Source: Sipunculus nudus (Eukaryota > Annelida > Sipuncula > Golfingiida > Sipunculidae). Taken from it: DNA of 64,000 nucleotides. The DNA lies in the NCBI GenBank assembly GCA_026874595.1, contig CM049307.1, positions 26,014,362-26,078,361 of the forward strand. Reading direction: 5' to 3'. Under the pieces are notes generated by a model. It ran no database searches, was not told the DNA's origin, and saw nothing but the letters and a program-made list of their open reading frames with translations. This document shows, one piece after another, positions 8,554 through 38,027 of this stretch (position 1 is the stretch's first letter; each line of letters begins with the position of its first letter). Made by a program: the position numbers and the translations under genes.

Positions 8554-9950
8554 CTGAAAATCAAAAGTACATATAATGTTATCATTCTTGGGAGCACATT
8601 CTTAAGAACCGCCGGATGAGTTTTTGTGATATATGATGTGCTTTTTGTCCTTGATGATCGGTAACTGCTTCACTCGGCTGGTAGCGTCACCAACTTTTTT
8701 CTATATTTTATTTTTGCCTTTAGAGCGGGATATATCACCAAAAAAATCAATTATAGGTACTACATTTTGGTCAAGTTTGAGGATGGGTCACATTGAACGA
8801 CGTTTCAAGGTAGCAGAGTAGATATATAACCATAAAACTGAATACGTCTGGCACAAAACAATACAACTATATTTAAAGAACTAAGAGCCCAATCTCTCAT
8901 TTTACCCTCTAATGATGAAAACAAATGTTCAGAGTGTTTATCATCATTCACATCACTATAACTTCCGTTATGAGACCTGTAAAGGTCACTCTACCACACC
9001 GGATCTAGTTTACATTTAAGACTTGAACTGGGGAAGTTGGTACATAAAAACAACCATGTGAGTATGTTCCAATCTTGATTCCAATTTCACCCATAGACGC
9101 TAATCCTTTTTTATGGCTGAGGTATCTTGTAAACTTCCGCTGAAATCCTGGTTATATAATGCCCTGTATGTAACCTTGTTTCGTTTGGTGAAGCTCACTT
9201 AGTAAATAACAATCATTCTATTTGTATAAACTTTGAAAGTCCTGATCGATTATACAAATACAGTGTATCCTAAGCTGTGTTAGTAACACCTGATTAACTG
9301 CAATCACCATAATTAAGATACTACCAAGGTACCTGTAGTAACCTTCTGTCACTTAAAAATTAAAAAAAGACAAACTGACAAACGTACTCAGTAAATCCGA
9401 CAAAATATAACGCAGTGGCCATATAATTCCTAATCAATGATATAAAGGAAAAAAGGGAAATTTAATATCTCATCAGAATATCAATTTGTTACGCTGGTAA
9501 GTAAGTTCACGTACACTGTGTCAGGTCAACACAAAAATGATTCATTTTTATTGTGTCTTGTGTCTTGTGTATGGAAACTGGGACAACATGAAATGTTCAG
9601 TAATCAATGACCCCCCCCCCCCCCCCCCGCCAGTCACTCAGGTGATTTTAAATGGAAATGTTACGTAAAGTCCCCAGTTACCGGTGACACGGGGAGAACA
9701 AGTATAGGAAGGGACAGAATTCCCCTATTCCTGTCGACGTATCATTTTATCAGCGTATTCTGAAGCATACAATTAATGGTTCAAAGCTGCTATCATTCTC
9801 TCAAGTTAATGCAGAAATCATTGTTAAAGTCTCTCCTAACATTGTAGTTTTGTTTTAATATTTTCTTCATATTTAATAACAACTTTAAACCTTTGAGGCA
9901 GCATTCGGTTGGTCGTTTCAGCATTTGGTGTCTCAAACCAAGATCACTTT

Positions 9951-10162
9951 AACTGAAGCGGATCCAGGGGAGGGCCCAGGGGGTCCGTCCCCACCCCGTT
10001 TTTATCCAGCCGCGGCAACCTTTTTTAAGGGTTTCAAACCACTTTTTTGCGGCCAGGAGCCCCCTCTATTTTCCGGACCTGTGGACCTTTTTTTTAGCGT
10101 TTTTCATAAATACTCAAGTGTCGAACCCAACCTTTTCCTAAATCTTGGATCCGCCTCTGTTT
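9951..10162 (-). mobile_element. Short MITE-like element with GCGGATCCAGG ends
   Basis: The ends are imperfect inverted repeats (AACTGAAGCGGATCC and GGATCCGCCTCTGTT). The body has G-rich and C-rich runs typical of this family in the window. The same insertion sits at the matching place in the right arm (23286-23495) but not in unit 3 (about 35.9-36.0 kb). It therefore entered after copy 3 split off and before the inverted duplication. The open frame across it is incidental. Confidence 0.65.
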
Positions 10163-10500
10163 AAGGATGTAACATTTTGGCATTCTTGCGTTTGAACTTC
10201 ATCTTAAAGAAAAACTTATTCCTGATCCCCAAACAGGTTTATATGTGGACACTTGTACAGAGTTTAGAATTAAAATATTCAAAAGTCTGTCTCACCGAAC
10301 GATTGGCTGTATATTGGCTTTCGGCATTGGACATAGAATGCAAAGTGTTCTGGGGAGTACACGGTCAGGAGGTTTTGGTCTGTAAATCAGTAGTCTAAGG
10401 AACACACAATAGGAATATTAGTTTGTTGGGAAATAATAATGAAGTTAGCATCGCGTCGTATTCGTTTATTCACATATCGAAATGAAAAGTTTTTCCTCTC

Positions 10501-12369
10501 TCAGTAGTAAAATCCAGATTCACACAGAGGATCGGAGATAGTGAGGTACAGCTGAAAATAAAGTAAATGAATCAGTAAATATTTTAACAATATTAAAGGA
10601 GGCGTTTTTACTTTTGATATCTTAAGTATAGCGATATTGACTCTCAGTTGTCCCATTGAAGAAAAATAATTAAATGAAGGTATCTTATGTTTAAGACCTT
10701 AAACATTATTGAACGAATCTAAAAATAAAAAAAAAAATTAAATCATGACGCTGCAGAAAATGCTGAACTCACCACTGCCCAGGGCAACAAGAAATCGTCC
10801 TTGGTGATAGTCTCTGCGCCTGTGAGAAGAACACGATAAATATAAATAGATTTAATTCGATATGAACTTATGTTTAAAAATTGGGAAAGGCAAAAGAAAG
10901 AGCATGATGCTAATGGAATTAAACTTTCATTATATATCTCAAATAAGGAAATATTGACCATAAAGCAGCTCACTTGGCAAATGGTAATTAAAACCTATCA
11001 GATAGAGAAACATAGCATTTGCTTAGGTATTGTAAGTCAAGAGAAAACACGGGTAATTACCAAGAGGGCTGAGGCTTTCCCATGCAGCGTCAATGTCGGA
11101 CTGGTCGATGACGTTGGGGTCACTGGCGGGGTCACGGGTAGCGAACCATTCAAAACCGGCCTCGCATTCACCATCACACATCTGACTTTCACGTTTCCAG
11201 GCGGCGATGAAGGGTCCAGATTCTACCACCCCGTCTGCAAAAATAAAATTGATGATTAATGAAGAATATTTCATCTGTCATTGGTTTATGTTATTGGCCT
11301 GTAATTGTTAGCCTTCCATGGAACTAACAAACGTTATTTGGTTGACAAAATATCAAGATCAGTAAGGCAGTCATCTGAAGTACAAATCAATTTAACAATG
11401 AACGTTCTTAACACAAAGGATCATATTATTTTACTGCATAAAGTATGTCCTGGTTTCCGGATTTGCTAAATAATTTTCACATCATATCCAGAATATAAAA
11501 AAATGATTTGACTCAATAATAGCAGAATCTACATACGTTTAATTTAGATTAAGCAGTATAATAACATACCCATACAGACCAGTGTAACATATAAATAAAT
11601 ATTTAGTGTTACTAAACGATTAGCTTGTGAAATCATACGTCCAGCTTTTGGTAGAAGGCATTCTCAGTGAAAGTTGCTTGCCAGAGAGACAGTTTCGCTT
11701 AGCATAAAGCAAACAAACTGACATCTAGCCGTAAAAGCGTCATTGCATATTACCATTTAAGTGTGATAGATACATACTAGCGTTTTTGAGATCATCGAAC
11801 ACTTTCTGAAGATCAGCCTTGGTCATGTTGACGTTGTCAGTGGAGATGAAACAAAAGATACGGCAGCCGGTTCGGAGCTCACGGTCATCAGAATTGTCAC
11901 ACTGGCCACAGGTAAATCTTGAATGAGAAGGGACCCAATAAAATATGTCACATTAAGTTCACGTGAAATGTCTGGAATTACAAAACGAGTAGATGGATGA
12001 TATGTTATTATACCCAAGTATTTGACTGATATTGTCTCACTGTTTACGATTATTATGATCTGCAATAAATATATGCAATACTCATATAAATCATTGATAA
12101 TCACTAAAAGCTTGCCAAAGCAACATTTGACCTCCTAGTGAAAAGTGACCTTTGACAGTTTTTTTATCTGTATAATTATCGACGTTTCATACATTCAATT
12201 AAGCCATGACTAACAAAAGTTATTTGTGAAATCTAGTCACAGGCAATGTGACCAAAAAAAAATTACATAAAAAATGGTAAAAAATATAATATATTTAATG
12301 CAGTAAAAAAAGAACTTACGGATCCTGGGCAGCGGCAAAGCCGATAAGGCAGACAAGAAGGAGAAACAT
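10501..12369 (-). CDS. Secreted EF-hand-like cysteine-rich protein, copy 1
   Basis: Five coding exons on the minus strand follow one non-coding exon: 12320-12369, 11778-11917, 11061-11234, 10773-10819 and 10501-10551. All junctions are GT/AG. The protein has 153 residues. Residues 1-14 (MFLLLVCLIGFAAA) are a signal peptide, and the mature chain has seven cysteines. Four stretches fit degenerate EF-hand loops, the clearest being LKNANGVVESGPF, where the G at loop position 6 and V at position 8 remain but positions 1 and 12 are not acidic. This copy has N where copies 2 and 3 have D in that loop, because exon 3 ends in A rather than G. The poly(A) signal is at 10465-10470. Intron 1 carries a 1049-base insertion. 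I do not recognise a named gene. A secreted, weakly or non-calcium-binding EF-hand-fold protein is inference from the loops; seven cysteines would leave one free or bonded between chains. Confidence 0.9.
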
Positions 12370-12919
12370 GGTTGCACCTGTAAGTAATACACTATTTAAA
12401 TAACCTATAAACAATATAACAAAATAATCAATTTGGAAGATATCATTTGGTTGTTAGCAAGAACGAATAAAATTGCTTAGTAATATACCTGTCATATAGG
12501 TAAAGGTAACTATCATCACTTTCTCTATGATACGGATAAGTTTATTACTTTCAAAATATCATCAATTTGACCAGAACGTAGAATTTAGGGATATCGTTTC
12601 GATTAAGATGATATTTATTATATATCAAAATATATCAGCCTGGACCAAAAATAGTCCATGTTGTCCTTAAAGCTAGTCAGTACCAGTTTAAATGTTGCAC
12701 ATTCTCGTTTATCACTAAAGAAAAAAAACTCTGCAGATGACATGAAACTCAGGAAGACTCGGATAACACTTGCGTAGCCTTTTTTTAGCACACTTTTATC
12801 CTGACCTTATCATTAAACTACATGTTAAAATATAAGTTGACATGAGATGAGCTACAGTGTAGCAAACATTACCATATCACCGTTAAGTACCAGCAAATTA
12901 AAACAAAATACCGAATTAA

Positions 12920-13968
12920 TGCTACGGTCACAATGTGAAACTGCCGCCTGCCGATTTTTAGACATCGGCGGATTCTTAAGTTACATGCCGCCGGCCGATT
13001 TTTTGCAAATCGGTGCGAGTGGTCATAAATAACTGCCAGGGCGGCCCAAGGCAGTGTCTAAGTTCGAGGGGGTGGGTGACGTCATCAGGGTGTTGGCCGG
13101 TGGCAGTTAGGCGACAGGCCGGCAGCCGTCAGATTTTACCTGCCACCTCCCGGTGACCTGGCGGACACCAGCCATTTACACCTGCCACCGGCCGACGATC
13201 GGGCCTTCTAATTGCCACCGGCCGGCGCCCGCCCGATAATCTGACGGCGGCAGTCTGGTTCCCGGTTGGATATATAAACCTATATTGCTCTCGTATCACT
13301 ACAAAGTGTACTATCAACCATTTATTATCAACCATTTTCCATCAACCATTATTATCAACCATTTCCTTCCAACAAGATGCCCCCTAAAGGCAAGGGAAAG
13401 GACAAGGCGCCAGCCCCAAAGCGAGTATGTTGTATGGTGGATGGCCTCGGATTTATATTCAGGGGTCCGGGAGTCTGCAATCGGCAGATCGCCGTCCTGC
13501 CACCTACCAACACCGACAGCCGCCTCCCAGCTGCCTTTCAATCTCCGTCCTGCCGCCGGGAGATATTTTGAAATCGTACGGTGGCATGTCGGTAGCATAA
13601 CGGCAGCAGGCCGGATGCTAGAGAGTGGCAGTTAGATCCTACCGATCGCCGGCCGAAGTTTGAAGGACCTCGAGCCCCACGACCGAATAAAAATCGCGCT
13701 GCTGCCCGCCTGCCGCTTGATAGCCGCCGCGCGACTTCGAAATGCGCCCGGCTGGCGACCTGACGACTGGCATAATTGGAAAAAATCGGCCGGTGGCAGA
13801 CAGAATTTTAACTTTTTCTTAAAATTTCAGCGGCGTCCTAGCGGCGTCTAAAATGCCGACTGCCGCCTGCCGATTGTGCCTGCCACCGAGCTGCCACCTG
13901 ACGAATTTTAGTAAAAACTGGCAGTTACCACGCCGGCAGGCGGCATTTAGTGATTTGTGACCGTAGCA
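12920..13968. mobile_element. GC-rich non-autonomous DNA transposon with terminal inverted repeats
   Basis: The ends are a perfect 14-base inverted repeat, TGCTACGGTCACAA and TTGTGACCGTAGCA, with more loosely matching sequence inside. Flanking four bases are TTAA on the left and TTCG on the right, a possible imperfect target duplication. The right arm at about 20862 has no insertion (phrase CCGAACTTCGCTATG), so this is a clean filled/empty pair. The interior is far richer in G and C than its surroundings and repeats modules such as CTGCCGCCTGCCGAT in both orientations. No transposase is visible. The superfamily is uncertain; TTAA-targeting groups are one guess. Confidence 0.75.
13271..13424 (+). 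other. Possible captured promoter and first coding exon inside the transposon
   Basis: Within the GC-rich element lies TATATAAA at 13271-13278. About 35 bases on is a leader with four near copies of ATCAACCATT (13313-13366), then an ATG at 13377 opening MPPKGKGKDKAPAPKR, directly followed by a good donor GTATGT. Past the donor the frame turns unlike the lysine-rich start. This is the layout of a host promoter plus first exon rather than transposon sequence, so transduplication is my inference. The source gene is not recognised; the lysine-rich start recalls histones or ribosomal proteins but matches none I can name. Confidence 0.4.
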
Positions 13969-14114
13969 TTCGCTATGAAACTGTTGTACCGCAAAACTCG
14001 AGGTATCTAAAGAAGAGTAAATTCACGACTGTTCAGAATTATTCCTGGTTTAAAAAGAGTGTTTACCACTAGAAAAGTAAGCTTACAACTTTTAAAAAAG
14101 ATAATGTCACTTAC

Positions 14115-14173
14115 GTTTGTAGTTTGTCTGAGAGTGAATGGGAAGAGTCTTAAAACTCCAGAGTTTATATATA
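14115..14173 (-). promoter_or_regulatory. TATA box and 5' non-coding exon, copy 1
   Basis: On the minus strand TATATATAAA occupies 14173-14164. The non-coding exon ends at 14115 with donor GTAAGT. The 59 bases from TATA to donor match copies 2 and 3 in length. About 250 bases further upstream are also shared, including GGGTGATATCTGGTGGGGTC. Confidence 0.8.
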
Positions 14174-15097
14174 CACCCCGGTGGACCGCGACAACTAGAC
14201 CAAGAATGCTTCATCTGATAACCATATGGCGAAACACTGGACATCCTGTTAACACTGGTGACTTCTGACCCCACCAGATATCACCCTTTCGTTTCATGGT
14301 ATGGTGTGAGGCCGCTCCCTTTACAGACAACCGCCATACAGACTAAGCACTGGAAGTGCTAATAGTACACTTTCAGTCATTCCTGCCTCGGTTCCTGGCC
14401 TTTCCTTATAGGATTTATTTTAAAATATACTTTATCCCTTCAACCACTTTTTAACTTATTATAAACAAGCCATCAATATATTTTAACTTTGTCTTTGCCT
14501 TTAGCCTTTTTCCCCGTGCGAATTTCTTGGTATACACGCTGGTTCTTAAGTGGTCAAGGGTTACGCAGGTTCAATTTTGTTTGTTCTCACTATACTTATA
14601 AATCAAACCAATACTACCAACAATTAAAGAAGCAATGATTTATCTATGAATTTTTTTATCAGTGTGTTTTTTTGCAAGCAGAAAGGTCCGCTTTCAATTG
14701 ACATAGACGTTATAGATTGTATTCTGATTACGTTATTTGTATCAGCTTGTATGCACACATGTGAAATACAGTGGGATCTGAAAATAGAAGTTGGAGAAGT
14801 TTACTAATATACTAATACATTATAGCTATGCAAGGACCCACTGATTCCAATGTCTTGTGTTTATAGTCTTCATGGTAATCAAAATATTTTTTAATATGAT
14901 AAAATCATTGATATCTGCATCGAGTGATGTAGGCTAGGAATTTAATATGCACTTTAGTTTTGATGTGACAGGAGATAAGCCTTGATAATGTTGTAGTATG
15001 AACATGTAACACAACGTAAGGATGCCATTACTATTAACTTTTAGAAGATAATTCGATGTCAGTTACCATAGTGACTCTTCAGGTAATATATACAGTA

Positions 15098-15515
15098 TTT
15101 TATGGGGTGACATAAAAGCGGACCGAACTGTCTCGCTAGTGAAGCTTGCTTTTCTAGCGAAGCGGTTGGAACGCCGGGCATGTGCGCCACCGACATGTGT
15201 TCGAATCCCGGATCGGCCCAGAATTTTCCTCGGAACAATTTGTCTTCGTAACAAAATGCGGGCTCGTCCGGACTGACGGTAAACTTTGTGGCCCAGGGAA
15301 TAAGCTCATCAAAGTGTGACTCCAGGGATAAATAGTCTTGTTCTGATAGCAGAACGCTCTTAAGAGGGGGTGTGTTACGGGGTGACATAAAAACGGACAG
15401 AACTGTCTTGCTTGTGAAGCTTGCTTTTCTAGCGAGGCGGTTGGAACGCCGGACATGTGCGCTACCGACATGGGTTCGTATCCCGGATCGGCCCCGGAAC
15501 AACTTGTGCCCCCCG
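15098..15515 (+). mobile_element. TRIM-like miniature LTR element with tRNA-like LTRs, copy 1
   Basis: LTR-like repeats lie at 15098-15253 and 15373 to about 15515, with only about 120 bases between them. The LTR family starts TGTTAC and ends GTAACA. Just inside the first LTR, TGCGGGCTCGTCCGGACT matches 15 of 18 bases of the proline-tRNA primer site used by murine leukaemia virus. A purine tract AAGAGGGGG stands just before the second LTR. Inside each LTR, TAGCGAAGCGGTTGG fits Pol III box A and TGTTCGAATCC or GGTTCGTATCC fits box B, so each LTR holds a tRNA-like stretch. No coding capacity is seen; it is an old, non-autonomous copy. Confidence 0.75.
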
Positions 15516-17426
15516 TATATCAAAATCCCGAATCCCCCACTGAGCATTTATGTTTTCTTTAATTCGTCAAAAGAATCTAGTATACACAAACACTTATTAA
15601 AGGATAAACACTGTTATGTGAGATGAAGACGATATATTTCCTTTCCGTAATGAACTAACCGTACCTAATTGTTGCCCTTTTTATATTCTTATTATCTCAA
15701 GACGAAGACAAGAAAAATGTGAGGGTAAACAGAACTGAAATATATCAAGATATATCCGCGAAGAGGATCGAGAAATACTAAACTGAAATGTATCCATGTA
15801 AAATCACAGATCAAAATACAGGGAAATGGTGTGTTGGTGAATCCAATATAATTAGGTTTAACTCAATAGAAAGTTGTGAAGGTGAACTAGATATATTCAG
15901 GTACAATCTCGAGTACAAGTGAGGTAGTTTATATTGTTGTAATGACAAAGGTGTAAGGTAGACGAAAAGTGAAATTCTGAAGGAATGAAAGATACGTGTT
16001 TTTATTTATTATATCAGATATAACTGCAAGACAACAGTGTGTAGCTCTGATTCTTAGAGGGCACACGACACGAGTGACAGCTGATGACTATATTTAGAAC
16101 AGTTCTTAGAACACCCATGAGATCATGTCAGCTGGTTGGGGACGTGTGCTCATGTAGATACGTTCGCTTATCACATGTGCTAACTCGAAATTCATAGCAG
16201 TAAATCACTCCTCTAATTAACCATTACTAGCAAAGAAATAACGAAGGCAACTTTGGTTATATTACCTTCCAACCTGAGTAAAACATGATGGTGATAGGAA
16301 AGTGCGATTATGAGTGACTGAGAAAAGTTAGAAAGATAATTGCGGTATATGACTCCTCCAGCCCTCCTTTGCCGCCACACTGATAATTAGCTACCATCAC
16401 CATGGACTCAATTATTACACAGCAGTGAAACTATTCATGCGATTAAATAAAGTGTTACAACAGTATACGTCAATATTCGATAACCAGTAGACTTATCGAA
16501 TGCATATGTCTCAACTCGATCTAACTTGGCTCTTTAGTGTTCACCTGCCATGCAGTTATACTTCAATCCCTAGCTAAACCTAACTTATATATAAACCAAC
16601 ACGTGATGTCAATTTCCTGGACTCCCTGTATACATTATTTTAAATCTTCATGAATAAAAGTACGCTTCCGAGGCAGCGGAAATCTTGCGTTTCTAAAAAA
16701 AGCAACTGATTTTCACGCTGCCTGCTTTGACCGTTTATGATGCATTTAGACACCAGATGGCAGTTCGTTGACCGTTGAAAAAAAAACTTGCGAATGGTGT
16801 GACAAGCAGCTAATCAGATGCCAATAAACAAACACTCGACTGCGCTTCAAGCGCCGTTTGATGATCCCTCTGCATTCTCGCATCATCGACCGATTCGAGT
16901 ATGACATTATGACTGTGTTAGCGTAGCCATGTATCTGTTGTCTGCAGGATTGAAACCAACCAGCGAGGTGTGCACGCAGCCTTTGTTGTTACGTTTCGTT
17001 TGAATTACAGCTCACCGGCCGGGCATCCTATGTGCCCATGGCCTGGAACAAACCACGTCACGGGCCATTCTCTTTGAGCCTGTAGCCTGTTCAGACGGTT
17101 ACCGGGGCGATGAGCTGTCACTCAAACCGAAATTAACATCATACTACTTAATATGCAACACGTATCCAGTCTAATTTGGTCTCAAAGTATAACTTTAACC
17201 ATACGCTTCAGTATGACATGCTATTTATGACCCCTGGTTGTAGATTGCTTAAGAAATATATTCTTATAGTTACAACCATACGTAAGAGAAACGACGAAGG
17301 AATGGTTATATATGATACAGCTTTATATGCCAAACCTATATCCAGCAAAATAATCTTTTCAATGATGTATCATTTATGATCAATATGTGTATGAACCTAG
17401 AGATATACTTTCCTTTACCCTCACAC

Positions 17427-17642: not shown

Positions 17643-20600
17643 AACATCTTGCTCACCCTTAAGGAGATTACTCAATATATAGAATACGTCAACAGATATA
17701 ACGTAACGTCAGTAACCGAATTTGGTAGGAACTGCCGCAAGTGTCAGCTCCAAGTTTTTTGGTATAATTGATCATGGGACTGGTTGCTTGTAAGCTATAG
17801 GTTGTCCTAATTTGTGCAAGCCCCCCCCCCCCCTAAAAAAATTAAAAACAATAACTGCTTTCATTACCTGGCTTATTCATTGGAGATGATCAAAAGATGA
17901 CTAAATAAGTATGAGGTTAGCCGAATTATTTTAAGAATTGTCTTTACTTTATTCTAATTTTGCTGATCCAAAGTGTTTGTAATCATAATGTTGTGACCAG
18001 TACCCAGAATATTCATCCCCTGACTGGTATTTCAGTGTTAGTTGCAAGTTTCGCCACTTATGCTGACTTGAGTCAAAATGATCTTTTCCAGTTCTTCCTT
18101 CTCATGTCAGGTAATGAAAAAGATATCTTTTATGTGAGGGATAGCGTTACCTTAGCGTAGATAAATTTATATTCGCTTATTGTTGTATTTGATATTTGAT
18201 TTTACCTACAATTTGTAATGTGCTTTACCAAACTTTGATCATGTGACTTTTACGAGTTTATAAACTAAAGATGGCACCATTTATGTTTACCTTTCTTCTG
18301 CGAGCAAAACCAGTACATTTTTAGGTTTTTTTTGAATGGCAAGAAAATTTACGATGGACTAGAGCTGAAATGGTATTTCTTAGTTTCCCTCTCTATTGTT
18401 CCCTCATTATTCGCGATTATGAACAGTGCAAAAAGATAATGTAAAAATATTAAGTTTTTTTTTTGAATGACAGACCCCAATTATATTAGTGTGATATATA
18501 TATAGGCACAACTAGTAATCTCTAGACCTTGGATGTCCAGATTGTTTGTATATATGTTCTCTTAAAATCTCCTTAGTAGATAAGAATTAGATCACTGACC
18601 AATATAGATTCAGCTTAGCAGTATGACCAGTGGGGCACTTAGTAAAGTTAAACATTTAAAATCAACAAAAGAGGTAACAGATTATAACGTATGTAAGATA
18701 TAGGATTTGTTTACATATGTAAAGTTTCACTGTTCAGCGTGAATGTTTGCTGTGTGATAAAGACTCCCTAAAGAATTGATAGTTACATTGATTATTTCAC
18801 AACTAGGCCCTTGTGTATTTTGAACTTTCATTTCCCAAAAAACAAACGATCTAAGTAATAATCAGTGTTAGGTTTAAAGGGAAAATAAGAAATATCAGTT
18901 TATAAGTTAATAATCATGTAAATATGCAATCGCTTTCTGACAGACAAACATTTAAACTTACATTAAGTAGAATATGAAAATCATTTCATTTTTTTATTTT
19001 GGATTATCACCGGGGTTTTATAACTCTATTATATCTTATAGTTATTTCAAGCCTGTCTACTTTGACAAATGAAGTAATAAGAAAAGAAGCACATCCAAGG
19101 AATTAAAAAAAAAAATAACCAGAAGAATGACAAATCAGTTATCTCCATGTTTTTTTATTCATGTGTGTTTCTAGTTTTTTTAATAAATAAAAAAAATATG
19201 AAAACAAAACACTGAGAATATTTATCTCGATTTTGTGATCCAACAGTAACAATTATATCCTAGTAAGGGAGAGATAAGGGGCAAAATTAATGGCAAAACC
19301 CTAAACCCCATTGATATTACAATTGTTCAGCCAGTACAACAGTCAGTGATTAACATGATCTCCCTTATACCTGGGGAATGACAGGGCCACAAATTACTGT
19401 TACCGATTAGGTAATTGCATTTTAAAGATTAAAACAAAAGGATATTAATGACACTCTATGGTGCGAGTACATAGCCCAAGGCGAACCATGCATGTCTTTC
19501 AATCCTGTAAAGTAAGTTAACACTGGACTCTCTCAGCCAAAGGCCTAATTTGTACAATATCACAAGTGACTAAGGCACCAAAATAGCAAAAACTTACAAA
19601 TAAAATTTACTGGTCAAAATGACTTGTTGCGCTTTTCTTTTTTTTCAAATGAAGACATGCAAAACTTATATTTTAAACAACTAGCCGAGTACCCGTGCCT
19701 GCATACATGTAATGTGTGACATTCGGCTTGCGACATCAGAGTTTTAGTCGGCCCCGATAGCAGCCGAGTTGAATAATTGGGGAGCATTAACCAACCAGGG
19801 TTCGATAAGTGCGTGAGTATACAACACAAAAGTACTCAAAACGGCATCAGGCATTAATTGTTGGTGGAAATGGGAAATGTATCTGCTAACTTAAAAACGG
19901 AATAAATCCTATCTGTGACCACGCCCAAAACTACAAATCTTAGTTGGGTGCCAGATAGGTTGTTTCCCCCTAAAACGCTTCAGACATCATTAATGACTTC
20001 ATAAAAACCAATTTTGTCAGGGGTGGTCTAATCAGAAATACACCTTGTATTTTTTAAAAATAAATCAGCTACATTTATTCAAATTGATTTGATACAGGGT
20101 TAGGAAAAGTATTCATATCTTTGGAATGTGGAAAGCTATATATATATATATATATAAATTACACACCAGATGAAAGCTAAAAAAGTTATAACAAAATGAT
20201 ATATGTATGACAGGATGTACCGCAAAATTGCTATTTCGGTGCAAGTACATTTCAAAACAGGCTGTTATTTTACAGAAGGCTACCCCTTTTTTATACTGCT
20301 ATCAGGCATTTTTATTATCTACACATATGCACCTTTAAAAAAAACATTGATAGCAATTGTCACCTGTGTGGTACCGGTGAACCCTCTGGCTGATGTACTA
20401 TAAAGAGTTTAAATAAATCCTATTAGGAAAAGCCCAGAAACCGAGGCAGGAATGACTAAAAGTGTATTATTGGCACTTCCAGTTTTTGGTCCCTATGGTG
20501 GTTGTCTGTGAAGGGAGCGGCCGCACACCATACCATTAAAGGGAAGGGTGATATCTGGTGGGGTCAGAAGTCACCGGTGTTAACAGGATGTCCAGTGCTT

Positions 20601-20658
20601 CGCCATATGGTTATCAGATGAAGCATTCTTGGTCTAGTTGTCGCGGTCCACCGGGGTG

Positions 20659-20717
20659 TATATATAAACTCTGGCGTTTTAAGACTCTTCCCATTCACTC
20701 TCAGACAAACTACAAAC
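20659..20717 (+). promoter_or_regulatory. TATA box and 5' non-coding exon, copy 2
   Basis: TATATATAAA lies at 20659-20668 and the donor GTAAGT follows position 20717. The exon ends GACAAACTACAAAC, the same as in copy 1. The first ATG is in the next exon, so this exon is leader only. Confidence 0.8.
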
Positions 20718-21129
20718 GTAAGTGACATTATCTCTTTTAAAAGTTGTAAGCTTACCTTTCCAGTGGTAAACACTCTTTTTAAACCATGATTAATTCTGAA
20801 CAGTCCTGAATTTATTCTCCTCTAGATAACTTGAGTTTTGCGGAACAACAGTTTCATAGCGAAGTTCGGTATTTTGGTTTAATTTGCTGGTACTTAACGG
20901 TGATATGGTAATGTTTGCTACACTGTAGCTCATCTCATGTCAACTTATATTTTACCATGTAGTGCGCTAAAAAAGAAAATAAAGTGATGATAGTTACCCT
21001 GACCTTGACAGAAATGTAACTAAGCAATTTTATTCGTTCTTGCTAACAACCAAATGATATCTTCCAAATTAATTTTTTGTTATATTGTTTAAAGGTTATT
21101 TGAATAGTGTATTACTTACAGGTGCAACC

Positions 21130-23031
21130 ATGTTTCTCCTTCTTGTCTGCCTTATCGGCTTTGCTGCTGCCCAGGAGCCGTAAGTCCTCTTTTTACTGCA
21201 TTATATATGTTATATTTTTTACTATTATGTAATTTTTTTTGGTCACATTGCCTGTGACTAGATTACAAAAAATACGTTTGTTAGTCATGGCTTGATTGAA
21301 TGTATGAAACTTCGATAATTATACAGATAAAAAAAACTATCAAAGGTCACTTTTCACTTGGAGGTCAAATGTTGCCTTGGCAAGCTTTTAACGATAACCA
21401 ATGATTTATATGAGTATTGCATATATTTATTGCAGATCATAATCGTAAACCATGAGACAATATGAGTCAAATACTTGGGTATAATAATATATCATCCATC
21501 CACCCGTTATGTAATTCCAAACATTTCATGTGAACTTAAAGTGACATATTTTATTGGGTCCCTTCTAATTCCAGATTTACCTGTGGCCAGTGTGACAATT
21601 CTGATGACCGTGAGCTACGTACCGGCTGCCGTATCTTCTGTTTCATCTCCACTGACAACGTCAACATGACCAAGGCTGATCTTCAGAAAGTGTTCGATGA
21701 TCTCAAAAACGCTGGTATGTATCTATCACACTTAAATGGTAATATGTAATGACGCTTTTACGGCTAGATGTCAGTTTGTTTGCTTTATGGTATGCGAAAC
21801 CGTCTCTCTGGCAAGCAACGTTCACTGAGAACGCCTTCTCAAGCTAATCATTTAGTAACACGGAATATATATTAAATATGTTACACTGGTTTGTATGGGT
21901 ATGCTTTTATGCTGCTTAATCTAAATGAAACGTATGTAGATTCTGCTATTATTGAGTCAAACCCTTTTTTTAATATTCTGGATATGATGTGAAAAATATT
22001 TAGTAAATCCGGATACCAGGACATACTTTATGCAGTGAAATAATATGAACTCTATGTGTTATGAACGTTCACTGTTAAATTGATTTGAACTTCAGATTAC
22101 TGATTTACTGATCTTGATATTTTGTCAACCAAATAACGTTTGTTAGTTCCATGGAAGGCTAACAATTAAAGGCCAATAACATAAAGCAATGGCAGATGAA
22201 ATATTCTTCATTAATCATCAATTTTATTTTTGCAGACGGCGTGGTAGAATCCGGACCCTTCATCGCCGCCTGGAAACGTGAAAGTCAGATGTGTGATGGT
22301 GAATGCGAGGCCGGTTTTGAATGGTTTGCTACCCGTGACCCCGCCAGTGACCCCAACGTCATCGACCAGTCCGACATTGACGCTGCATGGGAAAGCCTCA
22401 GCCCTCTTGGTAATAACCCGTGTTTTCTCTTGACTTACAATACCTAAGCAAATGCTAGGTTTCTTTATCTGATATGTTTTAATTACCATTTGCCAAGTAA
22501 GCTGCTTTATGGTCAATTTGAAAGTTTGATTTTTTGTGTCTTGATTTAAATGAGTTCATTATCAATTTTTCCTTATTTTGAGAATATATAATGAAAGTTG
22601 AATTCCATTAGCATCATGCTCTTTCTTTTGACTTTCCGCGTTCCCAATTTTTAAACATAAGTTCATATCGTATTGAATCTATTCACATTTTTCGTGTTCT
22701 TCTCACAGGCGCAGAGACTATCACAAAGGACGATTTCTTGTTGCCCTGGGCAGTGGTGAGTTCAGCATTTTCCGCAGCGTCTCATGATTTAAATTTTTTT
22801 TTAATTTTAAGATTCGTTCAATAATGTTTAAGGTCATGAACGTTTCAGATACCTTCATTTAATTTTTTTTCTTCAATGGGACAACTGAGAGTCAATATCG
22901 CTATACATAAGATATCAAAAGGAAAAATGCCTCTTTTAATATTGTCTAAATATTTACTTATTCATTTACTTTATTTTCAGCTGTACCTCACAATCTCCGA
23001 TCCTCTGTGTGAATCTGGATTTTACTACTGA
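21130..23031 (+). CDS. Secreted EF-hand-like cysteine-rich protein, copy 2
   Basis: Coding exons are 21130-21179, 21575-21714, 22236-22409, 22709-22755 and 22981-23031. Intron phases are 2, 1, 1 and 0, each with GT/AG ends. The start is the first ATG after the leader intron, in ACCATG. The 153-residue protein has signal peptide MFLLLVCLIGFAAA and then a mature chain starting QEPFTCGQC. EF-like loops can be placed around residues 40-53, 60-74, 96-111 and 119-131, each keeping a hydrophobic residue at loop position 8 but lacking a full set of acidic ligands. WKRESQMCDGECEAGFEWF in exon 4 is the most distinctive stretch. The poly(A) signal AATAAA is at 23062-23067. Differences from copies 1 and 3 in exons 3 and 4 are nearly all silent, which argues that the protein is under selection. 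Function is not known to me; secretion is clear. Confidence 0.92.
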
Positions 23032-23285
23032 GAGAGGAAATACTTTTCATTTCGATATGTGAATAAACGAATACGACGCAATGCTAACTTCATTATTATT
23101 TCCCCACAAACCAATATTCCTATTGTGTGTTACTCAGATTTTACTGTTTTACAGACCAAAACCTCCTGAATATTTTAATTCCAAACTCTGTAAAGTGTCA
23201 ATATATAAACCTGTTTGGGGATCAGGAATAAGTTTTTCAATAAGTTGAAGTTAAAACGCAAGAATACCAAAATCTTACATCCTTT

Positions 23286-23495
23286 AACAGGGGCGGATCC
23301 AGGATTTAGGAAAAGATGGGTCCTAGACTTGAGTACTTATGAAAAACCCTTAAAAAGGTCCACAGGTCCGAAAACAAAGGGGGGGGGGCTCTTGGCCGGA
23401 AAAAAGTGGTCTGAAACTCTTAAAAAAGGTAGCCGCGGCTGGATAAAAAGGGGTGGGGACGGACCCCCTGGACCCTCCCCTGGATCCGCTTCAGT
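23286..23495 (+). mobile_element. GCGGATCCAGG-family MITE in the right arm
   Basis: The left end is ACAGGGGCGGATCCAGG and the right end CTGGATCCGCTTCAGTT. It is the mirror partner of the insertion at 9951-10162, and unit 3 lacks it. Length is about 210 bases with no coding capacity. Confidence 0.7.
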
Positions 23496-24270
23496 TAAAG
23501 TGATCTTGGTTTGAGACACCAAATGCTGAAACGACCAACCGAATGCTGCCTCAAAGGTTTAAAGTTGTTATTAAATATGAAGAAAATATTAAAACAAAAC
23601 TACAATGTTAGGAGAGACTATAACAATGATTTCTGCATTAACTTGAGAGAATGATAGCAGTTTCGAACCATTAATTGTATGCTTCAGAATACGCTGATAA
23701 AATTATACGTCGACAGGAACTGGGGAATCCCGTCCCTTCCTATACTTGTTCTCCCCGTGTCACCGGTAACCGGGGGCTTTACGTCACATTTCTATTTAAA
23801 ATCACATGAGTGGTTGTGTGTGGGGCGGGGGTCATTGATTACTCAACATTTCATGTTGTCCCAGTTTCCAGACACAAGAAACAATAAAATTAATCATTTT
23901 AGTGTTGACCTGACACAGTGTACGTGAACTTACTTACCAGCGTAACAAATTGATATTCTGATGAGATATTAAATTTCCCTTTTTCCTTTATATCATTGAT
24001 TAGGAATTATATGACCACTGCGTTATATTTTGTCGGATATACTGAGTACGTATTGATGTTTGGAGTATAGCTGCTTGTAACATCTTCTCAGTTTGTTCCT
24101 TTTTTTAATTTTTAAGTGACAGAAGGTTACTACAGGTCCCTTGGAGGTATCTTTGTATACATATCAAAAGGAATCTTAATTATGGTGATTGCAGTTAATC
24201 AGGTGTTACTAAAACAGTTTAGGATACACCGTGTTTGTATAATCGATCTGGACTTTTAAAGTTTATACAA

Positions 24271-25063
24271 CAAGTGACCCGTGGGTCATGACGCTCAGCC
24301 TATTGACATGTTGACAATATGTCCTTGCACAGACAACTAATTTAGGTAATGTAGGTGGCATCATTGTTCATGCATATTATTTAAGTTCATCAAGACCAAT
24401 AAGCACAGCAAATCTGATAACAAACCAACCGGCCTTTCATGATGAATCTGGCAATTTATGTGTATTTTGCATTTATTTCTAGGGTGGTCAAACATACCCC
24501 AAAACTCTGAGAATATAGTTACTGTGACCCAATTTCAGGTTTCTGGGGAGAACTTTTTAGGAACTCTCAGGATGTTAAGTTAGAAGATTCTGGGCCCAAA
24601 GGTTATGATTTGTGCCCTACTTTGGTATCAAATTTTCATTTATTCTGAGGGGTGCTTATATTTATAAGCCCGATAGCTCAGAAAATATGAGCAACAGAGA
24701 CCTAAATACACGTTTCAAATCAGATTTTTATAGACCTCCCTGGATTTTAGGTTAGAATATTCCAGGTCCAATGTTTATGATATGTGCCCTGCATTAGTTG
24801 TTCAGATACTTGAGCTTTTGTATCAAAATTTTCATTATTCTGGGGGGTACTTCGGAGCCCTATAGCTTAAAGAATATGGGTAACAGAGACCTAATTCCAG
24901 GTCTCTAAGGTGATTTTTCATGGGCCTCTCTGGATGTAAAGTAAGAAGATTCCAGGTTCAGTGGTTACGATTTGTGCCTTGTTAACGGACAGACGGCCGG
25001 ACAGACGACGGACAAAGAGTGATCGCTATAGCTCAGATGACTTCAGTCAGCTGAGCTAAAAAC
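24271..25063 (+). mobile_element. Pearl-type non-autonomous Helitron, element 1
   Basis: The 5' end contains TGACCCGTGGGTCATGACGC, a near palindrome. About three units of roughly 180 bases follow, each with a phrase like ACAGAGACCTAA. Next come an ACGG/ACAG-type run (24986-25020) and a 3' hairpin, AGCTCAGATGACT with its partner AGTCAGCTGAGCT, ending CTAA. This order (tandem core, ACGG microsatellite, hairpin, CTRR-like end) is that of bivalve pearl/CvA elements and other Helitron derivatives. The matching places in the left arm (about 9212) and in unit 3 (about 36750) are uninterrupted, so insertion came after the duplications. No Rep/helicase gene is present. Confidence 0.7.
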
Positions 25064-25702
25064 AATGATTGTTATTTACTAAATGAGCTTCACCAAAGGA
25101 AACAAGGTTACATAAAGGAGACAAGGCATTATATAACCAGGATTTCAGCGGAAGTTTACAAGATACCTCGGCCCTAAAAAAGGAATAGTGTATATGGCTG
25201 CAAATGGAAACAAGTATGGAAAATACTTATATGGTTGTTTTTATGTACCAACGTCCCCAGTTCAGGTCTTAAATGTAAACTAGATATGCAAGTGGTAGAG
25301 TGACCTTTGCAGGTCTCATAACGGAAGTTATAGTGATGTGAATGATGATAAACACTCTGAACATTTGTTTTCATCATTAGAGGGTAAAATGTGAGATTGG
25401 GCTCTTAGTTCTTTAAATATGGTTGTGTTTTTTTGTGCCAGACGTATTCAGTTTTATGGTTATATATCTACTCTGCTACCTGGAAACGTAGTTCAATGTG
25501 ACCCATCCTCAAACTTGACCAAAATTTAGTACCTATGATTGATTTTTTTGCGATATATCCCGCTCTAAAGGCAAAAAAAAAAAAGATAGAAAAAAGTTGG
25601 TGACGCCACCAGCCAAGTGAAGCAGTTACCGATCATCAAGGAAAAAAGCACATCATATATCACAAAAACTCATCCGGCTGTTCCTAAGAATGAGCTCCCA
25701 AG

Positions 25703-25950
25703 AAGTTTCTCTGTAACTCTGTGACCTTGAAAAGAAGACCATGCTGACCTTTCTTCGAACTTGGTCAATATTTTGTTTGTATACATATGCATGAAAGAAA
25801 TAAAATACCTATATTTAATTCTTTTTGAACCATCCCGCTTACAAGGTAAATTAATCTCCAATCGCCGGACTGACGCCGGACGGAAAGACGGACGGACGGC
25901 ATGGATGGCGACAATAGTCCATCAGCCTATAAAAGCTTAAGGCTAAAATA
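25703..25950 (+). mobile_element. Helitron-like tail with ACGG run (shared with unit 3)
   Basis: A CTGTGACCTTGAAAAGAAGACC-like phrase leads to CGGACTGACGCCGGACGG and GACGGACGGACGGC, then CCATCAGCCTATAAAAG. The same order recurs at 37110-37335, so it predates the tandem duplication. The 3' end phrase differs from that of element 1, so it belongs to another family. Confidence 0.45.
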
Positions 25951-26851
25951 TATATCAATACCCATGCACCTGTTTACTCCTTAAAATCCTAGCTTGAAAT
26001 GAACCCGACAATCAGTAAATTGACTTTGCTTTTTCATTCACCTAGGGAATACCTGAAACGAAGTTTAACTTTTGGTTCAGAGTCATACTCTGAATATTCT
26101 GTTCAGTGCAGTGACAACTAACGTGTGAGTATTCTGTTATGTTACTCTATAAACTGTGCCATCTTTGATACGTGTTCAGACTAGACATAGCATTATATGA
26201 CAGAAAGTCCACTTCAATCACTGTGTCAGCGTTAGATTAGATAAGCATTTTATGTGTCTATCGCCAGGGGACAGCGACGACGTATACATATAGCGGTGGT
26301 ATCAATATTTTTGGATTTGTAGCGAATCTCAATATCTATATAACGATGTCGACCGTAGTTAGAAATAATTATCTCCAGCTTAATGATACGTTCATACTAT
26401 TTATACCCTATTCACGGTTTGCAATGCAAATTTTACATAGGTATAGTTAACACAACACATTAGTTTGTTTCCTCTACTAATATTTAACTTATATATAGGA
26501 CCAATTATTTGTTGTGTGATAAACGCTGGCATTATAACGCTATTCCTGATCTTAACGGACGCATACAGATGGTATTCATCGTTTAATATTTTGTAATTAA
26601 ATGCAAGACGTTAAGTTATTTGATAGTAACTAAAAAGTGACTAAATATGTATCCTTGAATTTATGGCGTTATATACTGATACACCGGTACCCCAACCAAA
26701 CTATAGGAATATTAATGCAGTAAATGCAACTTAAGTATCATATGCCTTGGTGTATGCATACATGTGACAAATGAGATGTACTTCTTGTATATGGCACAAT
26801 TTGGCAGATCAATATATAATATATATTTGAGCAGAATTTATATCCGACCGG

Positions 26852-32330: not shown

Positions 32331-32502
32331 TATTGGGGTCAAGGTTGTCTTTGAAGGGAGCGGCCTCAGACCATACCATTTAGGGGAGGGGTGATATCTT
32401 CTGAGGTCAGAAGTCACCGGTGATAATGGAATGTCCGGTGTTTCGCCATATGGTTATCAGATGAAGCATTCCTGGTCTAGTTGTCGCGGTCAACCGGGAG
32501 TG

Positions 32503-32561
32503 TATATATAAACCCTGGTGTTCTGACACTCTTCACTCTCAGTCTCAGGCGAACTACAAAC
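32503..32561 (+). promoter_or_regulatory. TATA box and 5' non-coding exon, copy 3
   Basis: TATATATAAA lies at 32503-32512, with 59 bases to the donor GTAAGT, the same as copies 1 and 2. The exon is more diverged (GGCGAACTACAAAC at its end). Proximal sequence such as CATATGGTTATCAGATGAAG is kept, but beyond about 170 bases it is replaced by the Helitron-like element. Confidence 0.8.
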
Positions 32562-33281
32562 GTAAGTGACATTGTTTAAAAGTTGTTAAGCTTACCTTAA
32601 CTGTAGTAACCGTATATGTACATTACTGAACAAATTCTTCTTATTGAATATACTTGGAATTTTTTATTGAGTAAGGTCATAGTCCAGTATTATTCCGAAT
32701 TCCTGTATTTTTTTTAACTTTGCTGGAACTTAACGGTAATGTGATAATATTTGCTTGTAGTGCGTATCATCAGGTTCTGTTTAAATGTCATGTTGAAAGT
32801 ACCCGAAATAAACGGGACTCAAGTGTCATCCGAGTTTTCCGGACTTTCATGACATGTGCACAGTTGGCTTTTCTGATTATCAACATGAATCTGCTAAATT
32901 AAAATTGGTGCATGCTAGATCGGCATTCAAGGATCACATCGACTATTTCTTGGTTCAGTTGGAAATATTTTGATATATGTTAAGTATCATCTTATGCGAA
33001 ACGAAAATCATAATATAGGTTAAGGGCATATCGCCAAATTCTATGTTCTTGACAAATTGATGATATTTTGAAAGTAATAAACTGATCCAATCTGGAATAA
33101 GGTGAGGGTAGTAACCCTGACTTCAATGACAGATATATAACCAAGAAATTTTATTCGTTTTTGCGAACAACCAAATGTTATGGACCAAATTATAACTTTT
33201 AAATTATAACTCGGGAATCTCGGTATTTATTTTATTGTTTCTAAAAGTATAAAAAAAAGTGTATTTCTTACAGGTCCCACC

Positions 33282-35241
33282 ATGTTTCTCCTTCTTGTCT
33301 GCCTTGTCGGTTTTGCCGCTGCCCAGGATCCGTAAGTACTCATTGTTATGCAGTATTTTAATTTATGTTATGTAGTTTTCTTGTCTTTATTACATTAATA
33401 ACATTGTAACAATCTCTCTGTTTTAGTCCTTGTTTGTTTCAAGGATTAAAACCTCGGGGACTATTAGAAATAATTGTCAAAGGTCACTTGAGGTTTGTTG
33501 TTGCTTTGACAAGCTTTTGAAGCTAATTCAATTATCAATGTTATTATAGCATATTATTATAGCATACAAATACATTATAGCAACAATAAATATTCCATTC
33601 ATTATAAGTGGGTATAATGCTATACACTCCATTTACTCGTTTTGTAATTCTTAACATTTCACGTGACTCTCACGTGCCTTTTATCCCACAATGCCCTTTT
33701 TTTCCAGATTTACCTGTGGCCAGTGTGACAATTCTGATGACCGTGAGCTACGTACCGGCTGCCGTATCTTCTGTTTCATCTCCACTGACAACGTCAACAT
33801 GACCAAGGCTGATCTTCAGAAAGTGTTTGATGACCTCAAAAACGCTGGTATGTATCCATCACAATGAAGTAATAATATGTTAACACGCTTTACCCCTATA
33901 TGTCAGTTTGTGAGCTTTGTGGTAAGCGAGAACGTCTGTCTGGCAGGCAACGTTCACTGAGAACGCCTTCTTGCAAAAGCTAGACGTATGTGCAAGGAAT
34001 TTGTTTTTACTTATTTTACAGAAGATTTTTTTTCGTGAGCTTATGAATTCACAAGTTGATCTTTTAGTTATAGATATATTACACTGGTTAGTATAAGTTT
34101 TTATAATACTGCTTAATCCAAATTTAACGTATGTAGATTTTGCTATTTATGAGTCAAACCCCTCTTTTGGTTGAATGTTCTGGACATTATGTGAAAAGTA
34201 TTAAGAAAATCCGGATACCAGGACATAATTAATGCAGTAAAATAATATGACCTCTATGTATTGAGAACGTTCAACGTTCAATTGATTTGTACATCAGATT
34301 TCTGTTTTACAAATCTTGTTATTATGTTCCATTGAAGGCTTACAATTTTAGGCCTTTAACATCAAGCAATGGCAGATGAAATTTTCTTCATCAAATATTA
34401 ATTTTATTTTTGCAGACGGCGTGGTAGAATCTGGACCCTTCATCGCCGCCTGGAAACGTGAAAGTCAGATGTGTGATGGTGAATGCGAGGCTGGTTTTGA
34501 ATGGTTCGCTACCCGTGACCCCGCCAGTGACCCAAACGTCATCGACCAGTCCGACATTGACGCTGCATGGGAAAGCCTCAGCCCTCTTGGTAATTACCCG
34601 TGTTTTCTCTCGACTTACAATATATAAGCAACCGCTAGATTTCTCTATCTGATAGGTTTTAATTACCATTTGCAAAGTCAGCTGGTTCATGGTCAATTCG
34701 ACTTTAATTTTATGTATCTTTGTTTAAATGTGTTATTATCAATATTTCCTTATTTAAAGAATATGGAATGAACATGTAATTCCAAAAGCATCATGCTCTT
34801 TCTTTTTCCTTTCCGCGTTCCCAAAAGGAATTGTATGTAACTGCAATAAATACTTTTTTTTAACATAAGTTCTATCATATAAATGTTTCACACATCGTAT
34901 TAAATTTATTTCAATTTTTGTGTTCTTATCCCAGGCGCGGAGACCATCACAAAGGACGATTTCTTGTTGCCCTGGGCAGTGGTGAGTTCAGCATTTTCTT
35001 AAGCGTAATGCCCTAAATATGTTCTTTAACTTTTATATTCGTTCAATAATACTTAAGGTTCAGATACCTTCATTTAATTATTTTTCTACAAAGGGATATC
35101 TCAGAGGCAATTTCGCTATACATACGATATAAAAAAATGCCACGTTTAATATTGTCTTAATATATACTGATTAATTTACTTTATTTTCAGTTGTACCTCA
35201 CTATCTCCGATCCCCTGTGTGAATCTGGATTTTACTACTGA
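33282..35241 (+). CDS. Secreted EF-hand-like cysteine-rich protein, copy 3
   Basis: Coding exons are 33282-33331, 33708-33847, 34416-34589, 34935-34981 and 35191-35241. A second, identical last exon lies at 35292-35342. Splice sites and phases are the same as in copies 1 and 2. The signal peptide reads MFLLLVCLVGFAAA; the mature chain starts QDPFTCGQC and is otherwise the same as copy 2. The first last-exon copy has no AATAAA before the second, so a transcript using it would end in the shared signal at 35373-35378. Either last exon gives the same protein. The promoter has a mobile element close upstream, so expression may differ from copies 1 and 2 (inference). Confidence 0.9.
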
Positions 35242-35351
35242 GAAAAGAAATATTGTCTAAATATTTACTGATTAATTTACTTTATTTTCAGTTGTACCTC
35301 ACTATCTCCGATCCCCTGTGTGAATCTGGATTTTACTACTGAGAAAAGAAA
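35150..35351 (+). repeat. Tandem duplication of the last exon with its acceptor, 2 x 101 bases
   Basis: Units 35150-35250 and 35251-35351 differ at about two intron bases. Each holds the end of intron 5, the TTTTCAG acceptor, all 17 codons of the last exon and AGAAAAGAAA. The duplication is private to copy 3. Confidence 0.95.
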
Positions 35352-35529
35352 CTCTTTCGATTGCGATATGTGAATAAACGAATACAACAAAATGTTAACT
35401 TCATTATAACTTCACTACCACCAAATGTCCCATGTTCTCCAGACCACTGCTCCACATAACAATGAGAACAGAAGTGTTTTCCCCAGACCACTGATTCCAC
35501 GGACCTCCAAATATCCTTTGTTGTGTGTT

Positions 35530-35650
35530 CAACTAACATTTCGGATACTACCTGGGAATCTGGATCTTACCACTGAGAGAGGAAAACATGACGCCTACCA
35601 TATATAAATAATGATAACTTCACTGTTCTTTCCCTATCAACAAATATCCC
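35530..35650 (+). pseudogene. Decayed third last-exon remnant
   Basis: GAATCTGGATCTTACCACTG at 35556 aligns to the exon end GAATCTGGATTTTACTACTG. It is followed by GAGAGAGGAAAAC and then a 3' flank (ATAACTTCACT, CCCTATCAACAAATATCCC) like the flank of copy 2. The upstream half is weakly alignable. It is a relic of an older duplication of the same exon and its 3' flank. Confidence 0.65.
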
Positions 35651-37109
35651 AGTCAAGTCCACTACAGTGAAATATCCCATGACGAGTGATCATGAGTAAA
35701 CTGTTTCACAAACTAATATACGGGATGCGTGTTCCTCAGATCGGATTACATTCCTTAACCAATATCCTAAGCCAATATGCAATTAATCGTATTTTAAACA
35801 TTTTAAAAATAAATGTATATTAAGTATCCAAATCTGTTTTGGGTATCAGGAAGAACAAGTCCGTTGACTTTTTTAATAAGCTGAACCAAATCACACGAAT
35901 CCCAAATTTACAACATAAAAGTTTATCGAGTTTTTGAGTCACCATGTACCAGAGGTGCTCTGAGATTTGATCGAGATGAACCATTTTATCCTATGCGGCT
36001 GTGGTAGAATTAAACCGAGGCATTTGAGTTCCATTGCCAAAAAAACACCAAACGAATGCTGCCTCAAAGGGTTATACATAGCATTAACTCAGACAAAATA
36101 TTTAAAAACTACAATGTTAATAGAGAATATAACCGGCATTTCAGCAATAACCTGATAGGATAGTAGCTTTGAGCCAACAAGGGTGAGCGTCAGAATACGC
36201 TGTATAATAATACGTCGGCAGAGACTGGGGATTCGTATCCCTTTCCTTATTCTCCCCGTGTTACCGGTAACCGGTAGCTCTACATCACGATTTCATTATA
36301 AATCACTTGGATCAAACCCATCCCCTGACCCAGTCTGGCCTGTAATCCTAGTTTCAAGACAAAAGACACAATAAAATAAATCATCTTAGAATAGACCTGA
36401 CACAGTGAACATGAACTTGCTGAACAGCGTTACAAATTGATAAGGCATATTCTCATGATATATTAAATTTTTCGCCTGGTCTTGATTTTATTGATCATCA
36501 GTTATGTGGCCATTTGTTTATTATATGTCGGTTGAACCGAGTACATACATCGATTTTAAAGTCTGGTTGATTGTTACATGTTCTCAGCTCGTCCTTTTTA
36601 TTAATTTTTAAGTAATAGGTTACCAGTTGTTCTCTTGGATGTATCAAATTAATATTAGGAATATAAACCTGTGATGATTGCAGTTAATCAGGTGTTACGA
36701 CCACTGTGTAGAATCCAATACATTTGTATAAACTATCAAGAGATCTGAAGTAAATAAAGGAACAATGATTGTTGTAATACTAAATTATTAGCATCCACAA
36801 ACAAAATAAGGTTACATAAATAAGACAAGGCAAGTTATAACGAGAATTTCCGCGGAAGCTGATAAGAGCCCACAGCCCAAAGAAGAGTGTTTATGGGTAG
36901 TAACAGACACAAGACATCTGTACTCACATTGATGTATATATGAAGTCATAAACTTGAAATTGATGCATATAGCAGAGTGGCCTTTGCAAGTCTCATCACA
37001 GAAGTTATATAGATCTACATGATGATAAACATTCTCTTGGCTACAGGATATCTTAAAATTAGCTTATATTGCTTAATGTCAGGAGAATGTCTTTAAAGTA
37101 TCTAATCTG

Positions 37110-37335
37110 TGATCTTGAAAAACAGGTAAAGGTGACATATATTCGAGATTTACCAATGTAATTTCGGTATACTTCCGCAAGGAAGAAATAAAGTATTTAT
37201 GTTTAATATTTTACATATCCCGCTGACGGGAAGCAAAGGTAAACCTAGTGTGGACGACGGACGGAAGGACAGAAGGACGGCATAGGTGACGGCAATATCC
37301 CATCAGCCTATGAAGGTTACGGGCTAATCAAACAA
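37110..37335 (+). mobile_element. Helitron-like tail, unit C copy
   Basis: GACGACGGACGGAAGGACAG and GGACGGCATAGG are followed by CCATCAGCCTATGAAGG and CGGGCTAA. It is the partner of 25703-25950 in unit B and so was inherited through the tandem duplication. Confidence 0.45.
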
Positions 37336-37969
37336 AACCCAACATTTCACTGAATGAAATCATGGCTTGATATGAATCCGACCTAAAGTAAAGTGACTTT
37401 GCTTTTCATTTACCAAGGGAATATACAAAACATTTTTTTTTCATTTTGCATTCAGAGTCAAACTCGTAATATTCTGTTCAGTGCAGTGATATCGAAAATG
37501 TGAGTTATCTGTTAGGTGACTGTGTAGACGCCGCCATCTTAGTATGTGTTCAGACTAGACTAAGCATAATATGACGGAAAATCCACCAATCACCGTGTCA
37601 GCATTAGACATTATATCTGTCTGTACCATGGCCCTGTCTATTGCTAGGGGACAGCGACGACGTATATTCAGGTTTTATGAGAATCACCGAGAAATCAATA
37701 TTTTCAGGAATTGTAACGAATTACAACAGCTAAATTACGATGTCAATCCAAGTTAGAAATAATTATCTCCCTCTTAATAATACATTTATGCTATATATAT
37801 AGCCTATTCGCCTATTAAAATTAGGATTTAACTTCAACGTAATTCGTTCTGAACTATAACGAATGATTTTTTCACCAGAGCTATGCTGACTACGACCTGC
37901 GGGCCACTTGCGACCTTTTTGCACAGCAAAGGAATAATATGGTTAACAAGATATTAATGGCATTATTAC

Positions 37970-38016: not shown

Positions 38017-38027
38017 GATTATTATTA
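37971..38027. repeat. (ATT)n microsatellite
   Basis: A run of ATT units of nearly 60 bases with one G interruption. A TRIM-like element follows it at once and may have inserted into it. Confidence 0.9.

Follow-up and report, generated by a model that had tools for sequence, protein, structure and literature searches.

Helenus elements are TRIMs whose LTRs contain sequence derived from a tRNA, and they occur in fungi, animals, and one plant (Kojima, 2024; PMC10886601). They range in size from 311 to 1263 bp, include 51 families across five orders of pteriomorph bivalves, and their use of Pol III was inferred without validation (PMC10886601). In animals they are flanked by 4-bp duplications, tRNA-Pro is among the primers in bivalves, and Gypsy elements are the likely helper (PMC10886601). 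A 2026 meeting report also mentions the Helenus finding (PMC12859917). Cassandra is likewise a TRIM of small size whose LTR contains a Pol III promoter, and transcription begins in the first LTR and ends in the second, so that the RNA has a terminal repeat for which 18 bp is cited in Kojima (2024; PMC10886601). It differs in that its LTR contains 5S rRNA sequence and in being known from plants.

We analyzed 64,000 nucleotides of Sipunculus nudus DNA (the window, i.e., the whole stretch under study) and found at positions 15098-15515 an element that is very probably a Helenus-type TRIM, that is, a gene-less LTR retrotransposon of about 420 bp with a tRNA-derived promoter remnant in its LTR. The author of an earlier note on this DNA knew of no described group with this arrangement; such elements were, however, named Helenus in 2024 (PMC10886601). 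The element is a further example of the Helenus kind and not a new class, here with two copies that share the 64 kb with a Gypsy element.

Comparison of the window with itself using BLAST revealed direct repeats at 15100-15219 and 15375-15494 (91.7% identity, 120 bases). They belong to copy 1, an element of about 418 bp without genes, in which 5' LTR, primer-binding site (PBS), 119-bp interior, polypurine tract, and 3' LTR follow each other, so that the succession of parts within some 420 bases that the earlier note had claimed was confirmed. When 15050-15560 was compared with the window, BLAST matched 38026-38351 (85.3% over 326 bases), which is part of a second copy that extends from 38028 to 38380 (353 bp) and has the tips TGTTAC and GTAACA. 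The LTR ends were set from the tip motifs and from the comparison between copies, and all quoted identities are BLAST values. The parts of both copies are as follows:

15098-15253, plus strand: 5' LTR of copy 1, 156 bp, ends by comparison with copy 2
15254-15372, plus strand: interior of copy 1, 119 bp, 90.3% identical to that of copy 2 over 113 aligned bases
15257-15274, plus strand: primer-binding site of copy 1, 15/18 to the complement of the presumed eukaryotic tRNA-Pro 3' end
15362-15370, plus strand: polypurine tract of copy 1, AAGAGGGGG, followed by TG and then by the 3' LTR
15373 to about 15515, plus strand: 3' LTR of copy 1, from the direct repeat and the comparison with copy 2
38024-38027, no strand: left putative target-site duplication ATTA of copy 2, where an ATT microsatellite ends
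38028-38191, plus strand: 5' LTR of copy 2, 164 bp, TGTTAC...GTAACA
38192-38310, plus strand: interior of copy 2, 119 bp, of the same length as in copy 1
from 38195, plus strand: primer-binding site of copy 2, 12/18 to the tRNA-Pro complement
38300-38308, plus strand: purine-rich AAGACGGGG of copy 2, with one C inside
38311-38380, plus strand: 3' LTR of copy 2, 70 bp versus 164 bp in the 5' LTR, box A and box B absent
38381-38384, no strand: right putative target-site duplication ATTA of copy 2, exactly 4 bases

Copy 1 is worn, with decay at both its 5' tip and its 3' tip. Its 5' LTR begins with TTTTAT, whereas the other three LTRs begin with TGTTAC, and ends with CGTAACA; the outer end of its 3' LTR is decayed, which places the boundary between about 15509 and 15520. 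A target-site duplication was looked for at the ends of copy 1, and none was found. As the left ATTA of copy 2 closes an ATT microsatellite, the duplication around this copy is weaker evidence than usual. Within the 3' LTR of copy 2, the deletion junction lies near 38350-38354 at a T run (TTTTT). The two LTRs of a fresh insertion are identical, and a later deletion is therefore the best account of why this LTR lacks the boxes. In both copies the 5' LTR differs from the 3' LTR in the same way (CTCGCTAG versus CTTGCTT), which was considered as a sign of LTRs that are not re-copied from each other, but this argument was dropped because the deletion junction of copy 2 can yield the same letters.

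The PBS was scored against the complement of a tRNA-Pro 3' end whose letters we presumed, tRNA-Pro being the one tRNA compared. Matches of at least 14/18 occur at only two sites of the window, namely in copy 1 (15/18) and at 61028-61045 (16/18), and 20 simulations contained none. The 12/18 match of copy 2 is at chance level when taken alone, with 15 such sites in the window versus 6.75 in the simulations. The site at 61028-61045 is part of a larger element:

60274-64000, plus strand: broken Gypsy element that runs past the window end, with its 5' LTR at 60274-61021 and its PBS at 61028-61045

This PBS lies 6 bases past the 5' LTR, and the LTR tips are TGTTAC and GTAACA, as in the TRIM. The hexamer TGTTAC occurs 37 times on the plus strand of the window, so that these common tips are modest evidence. 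The window contains 106 open stretches of 75 codons or more, and 10 of them were included in a Pfam scan, which gave matches only in two frames of this element, one gag-like (SCAN match) and one with an integrase (Integrase_H2C2, rve). The element is split into separate frames, and since only about 1 kb separates the gag-like frame from the integrase match, it is probably deleted inside. As this Gypsy copy is broken, and as a BLAST search with copy 1 found no match in it at E-values up to 10, we consider it a candidate for a relative of the helper of the TRIM and not a proof of the helper. Steamer and its relatives were set aside as helper because the PBS of bivalve Steamer elements corresponds to tRNA-Leu (PMC8905726) and not to tRNA-Pro. 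A further Gypsy LTR, related to 60274-61021 (77% over 820 aligned bases), is present at 43482-44290 on the minus strand. There was no PBS within about 80-110 bases on either side of it, its flanking 4-mers, TTTA and CTTA, have three of four bases in common, and it is probably a solo LTR.

The earlier note had also claimed that each LTR holds box A and box B in tRNA-like order, and this was confirmed for both LTRs of copy 1. The following promoter-like features were found:

15110-15117, plus strand: TATA-like ACATAAAA, 45 bases before box A, in 4/4 LTRs, putative role
15155-15166, plus strand: box A-like, 5' LTR of copy 1, 1 mismatch to the consensus
15198-15208, plus strand: box B-like, 5' LTR of copy 1, 1 mismatch, 43 bases after box A
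15425-15428, plus strand: TTTT, possible Pol III stop in the 3' LTR of copy 1, equivalent of 15150-15153, putative role
15430-15441, plus strand: box A-like, 3' LTR of copy 1, 2 mismatches
15473-15483, plus strand: box B-like, 3' LTR of copy 1, 1 mismatch
38085-38096, plus strand: box A-like, 5' LTR of copy 2, 1 mismatch
38128-38138, plus strand: box B, 5' LTR of copy 2, 0 mismatches

In all three of the four LTRs that carry the boxes, the spacing of box A and box B is 43 bases. We scanned both strands of the 64 kb for the consensus boxes at a distance of 38-60 bases, with 20 first-order Markov simulations as the control. At up to 1 mismatch in each box, the window contains two pairs, both in 5' LTRs, in comparison to a simulated mean of 0.1 per 64 kb. 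Copies 1 and 2 are related, and the two matches therefore count as one independent event. That such a pair falls into a 156-base LTR by chance is unlikely, with an estimate of 0.1 x 156/128,000, or about 1 in 10,000, which ignores the higher G+C of the LTR. A looser scan (2 + 1 mismatches) gave 8 matches versus 2.25 in the simulations, with 5/8 in the two copies, including the 3' LTR of copy 1 and one match on the minus strand, and 3/8 elsewhere. A second and equally good box A-like stretch, TAGTGAAGCTTG, is found at 15137-15148, 18 bases before the main box A, and at 38067 in copy 2; it looks like a short internal duplication.

A functional tRNA gene was rejected, as no cloverleaf was found by ARAGORN, Rfam, or fold tests. 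ARAGORN found no tRNA gene in the whole window, and Rfam gave no match at the gathering threshold across the window and none at E-values up to 10 on 15050-15560, i.e., on copy 1 alone. These Rfam searches of copy 1 and the window, at the same respective thresholds, also gave no match to 5S rRNA. The RNA of the three box-bearing LTRs folded no better than dinucleotide shuffles (z 0.41, 1.05, and 0.36); equally good folds came from 130, 173, and 123 of 200 shuffles. The cloverleaf check that the earlier note had suggested was thus negative, and the tRNA-like part appears to be a promoter-like remnant, i.e., a box pair, and not a tRNA gene. It is the boxes that suggest a tRNA derivation of this part of the LTR. 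The proposed parallel to Cassandra, i.e., a TRIM with tRNA-type promoter boxes in its LTR, was supported.

Our assignment follows the published traits of Helenus, with the element likened to the description of the group. Box A and box B are present in three of four LTRs, the fourth being internally deleted, and two LTRs enclose a short interior (119 bp in elements of about 418 bp and 353 bp). The PBS lies just past the 5' LTR, with 15/18 in copy 1 and 12/18, which is chance level alone, in copy 2, and a purine tract precedes the 3' LTR, being AAGAGGGGG in copy 1 and AAGACGGGG, with one C, in copy 2. A possible counterpart of the 4-bp duplication of animal Helenus elements is the ATTA on either side of copy 2, beside the ATT microsatellite; none was found at copy 1. 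With respect to the Helenus motifs, YGG in box A is present in 3/3 box-bearing LTRs, GGTTC in 2/3, and TRGCY in 0/3. The box B of the 5' LTR of copy 1 reads TGTTC instead of GGTTC, and box A starts here with TAGCG or TGGCG, the last base being G, whereas TRGCY is found in most Helenus families. Exact-pattern scans of genome contigs (one scan) and viral contigs (two scans) found no relatives, and neither did blastn with 15085-15525 against phages and plasmids; as these collections consist of bacterial, archaeal, viral, and plasmid DNA, this result has no bearing on the abundance in animals.

From the sequence, Pol III is the probable polymerase of the TRIM. Box A and box B would recruit Pol III, which would begin transcription in the 5' LTR a short way upstream of box A. 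Pol III start sites lie 12-18 bases before box A, which predicts a start at about 15137-15143 in copy 1. The polymerase would then pass through the interior and halt at the T run in the corresponding position of the 3' LTR. Both ends of the resulting RNA would thus share a short repeat, as is reported for Cassandra, here of some 11-17 bases. Gypsy proteins would package this RNA, prime its reverse transcription with tRNA-Pro, and integrate the copy. As the promoter would be located downstream of the start, in R-U5, the RNA would contain it and each new copy would regain it. An additional TTTT at 15224 in the 5' LTR of copy 1 could end Pol III transcription early, and the proposed stop is not conserved, as the 5' LTR of copy 2 reads TTT there. 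Such small LTR elements seem to have exchanged a Pol II promoter for a tRNA-type one, and the locus is of value as a case for which a putative start, a putative stop, and a candidate helper can be named and put to the test.

Alternatively, Pol II could drive the same TRIM from the TATA-like ACATAAAA, in which case the tRNA boxes would be without function and left over from an old SINE insertion. This alternative competes with the Pol III step only, and its probability overlaps with that of the Helenus-type identity. The presence of ACATAAAA in all four LTRs agrees with it, as do the TTTT that follows the tRNA-like part within the 5' LTR of copy 1, the missing tRNA fold (ARAGORN, Rfam, folds), and the lack of the boxes in one of four LTRs. 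However, the boxes are the only pairs with 1 + 1 mismatches in the 64 kb, their 43-base spacing was kept at a copy divergence of about 15%, and an upstream TATA-like box is compatible with Pol III as well, so that we consider transcription by Pol II possible but doubtful. Another view would be that a SINE or a tRNA pseudogene lies by chance in or near unrelated direct repeats. tRNA-derived SINEs share with the element the box A and box B promoter, the short length, and the non-coding character, but they use the LINE machinery and have no LTRs, PBS, or purine tract. The earlier note had named variation of the tRNA-like part independently of the LTR as the pattern that would speak for a nearby SINE. 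This pattern is seen in one of the four LTRs, as the 3' LTR of copy 2 misses the tRNA-like part, which is hence separable from the LTR; it is absent from the other three, which have the boxes at the same place, and the fourth is best explained by the later deletion at the T run. As a second copy has the same order of parts, with PBS, purine tract, and LTRs in both, a merely nearby SINE is extremely unlikely. There is hardly any probability at all that the element is biv-TRIM, a bivalve TRIM described in 2019, although both belong to the same general class. We set biv-TRIM apart by its described lengths and purine tract: its terminal repeats measure 202-218 bp, its interior measures 77-80 bp, and its purine tract is mostly GGGGAGA (PMC6934838), whereas the LTRs here have 156 and 164 bp, the interior has 119 bp, and the tract is AAGAGGGGG. 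For biv-TRIM, a canonical PBS was not unambiguously identified by its authors (PMC6934838).

It was also conceivable that the tRNA-like part of the LTR mimics the 3' end of the primer tRNA, so that the RNA folds R-U5 onto its own PBS and either primes itself or holds the PBS. The sequences at 15205-15222 and 15480-15497 match the presumed 3' end of tRNA-Pro, i.e., of the same tRNA as the PBS, at 13/18 positions, and the 5' LTR of copy 2 does so at 12/18; in the simulations, 13/18 matches to the tRNA-Pro complement occurred 1.45 times per 64 kb. In copy 1, the strongest pairing with the element's PBS (-21.9 kcal/mol) is that of the LTR 22-mers that start at 15199-15206, and 5.5% of 200 shuffled PBS were equal or better in a control that took every third LTR position only and thus flatters the observed value. 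In copy 2, the best pairing (-14.4) is at 38098-38100, outside the tRNA-like 3' part, with 57% of the shuffles as good, and the tRNA-like 3' part itself (-14.0) ranks only 5-9 of 143. The minimum-energy fold of copy 1 shows the LTR-PBS pairing, with 53/200 shuffles folding as well (z -0.70); for copy 2, 194/200 shuffles were as good (z 1.68). Self-priming thus has no support beyond one copy, the pairing of copy 2 being at chance level, and we consider it very unlikely. Complementarity between LTR and PBS had been considered for Helenus and none was found (Kojima, 2024; PMC10886601), whereas copy 1 shows some and copy 2 the chance level.

The window contains further repeats apart from the TRIM and the Gypsy sequences. 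Among the best 60 BLAST matches listed, large repeated blocks were found at 8585-14423, 20408-26413, and 32343-37809; the first two are mutually inverted, with pieces of 87-98% identity, and the third is more diverged (65-87%). They are perhaps a duplicated gene or a large repeat unit. At 56483-57244 there is an array of tandem repeats whose units measure about 41 and 164 bases.
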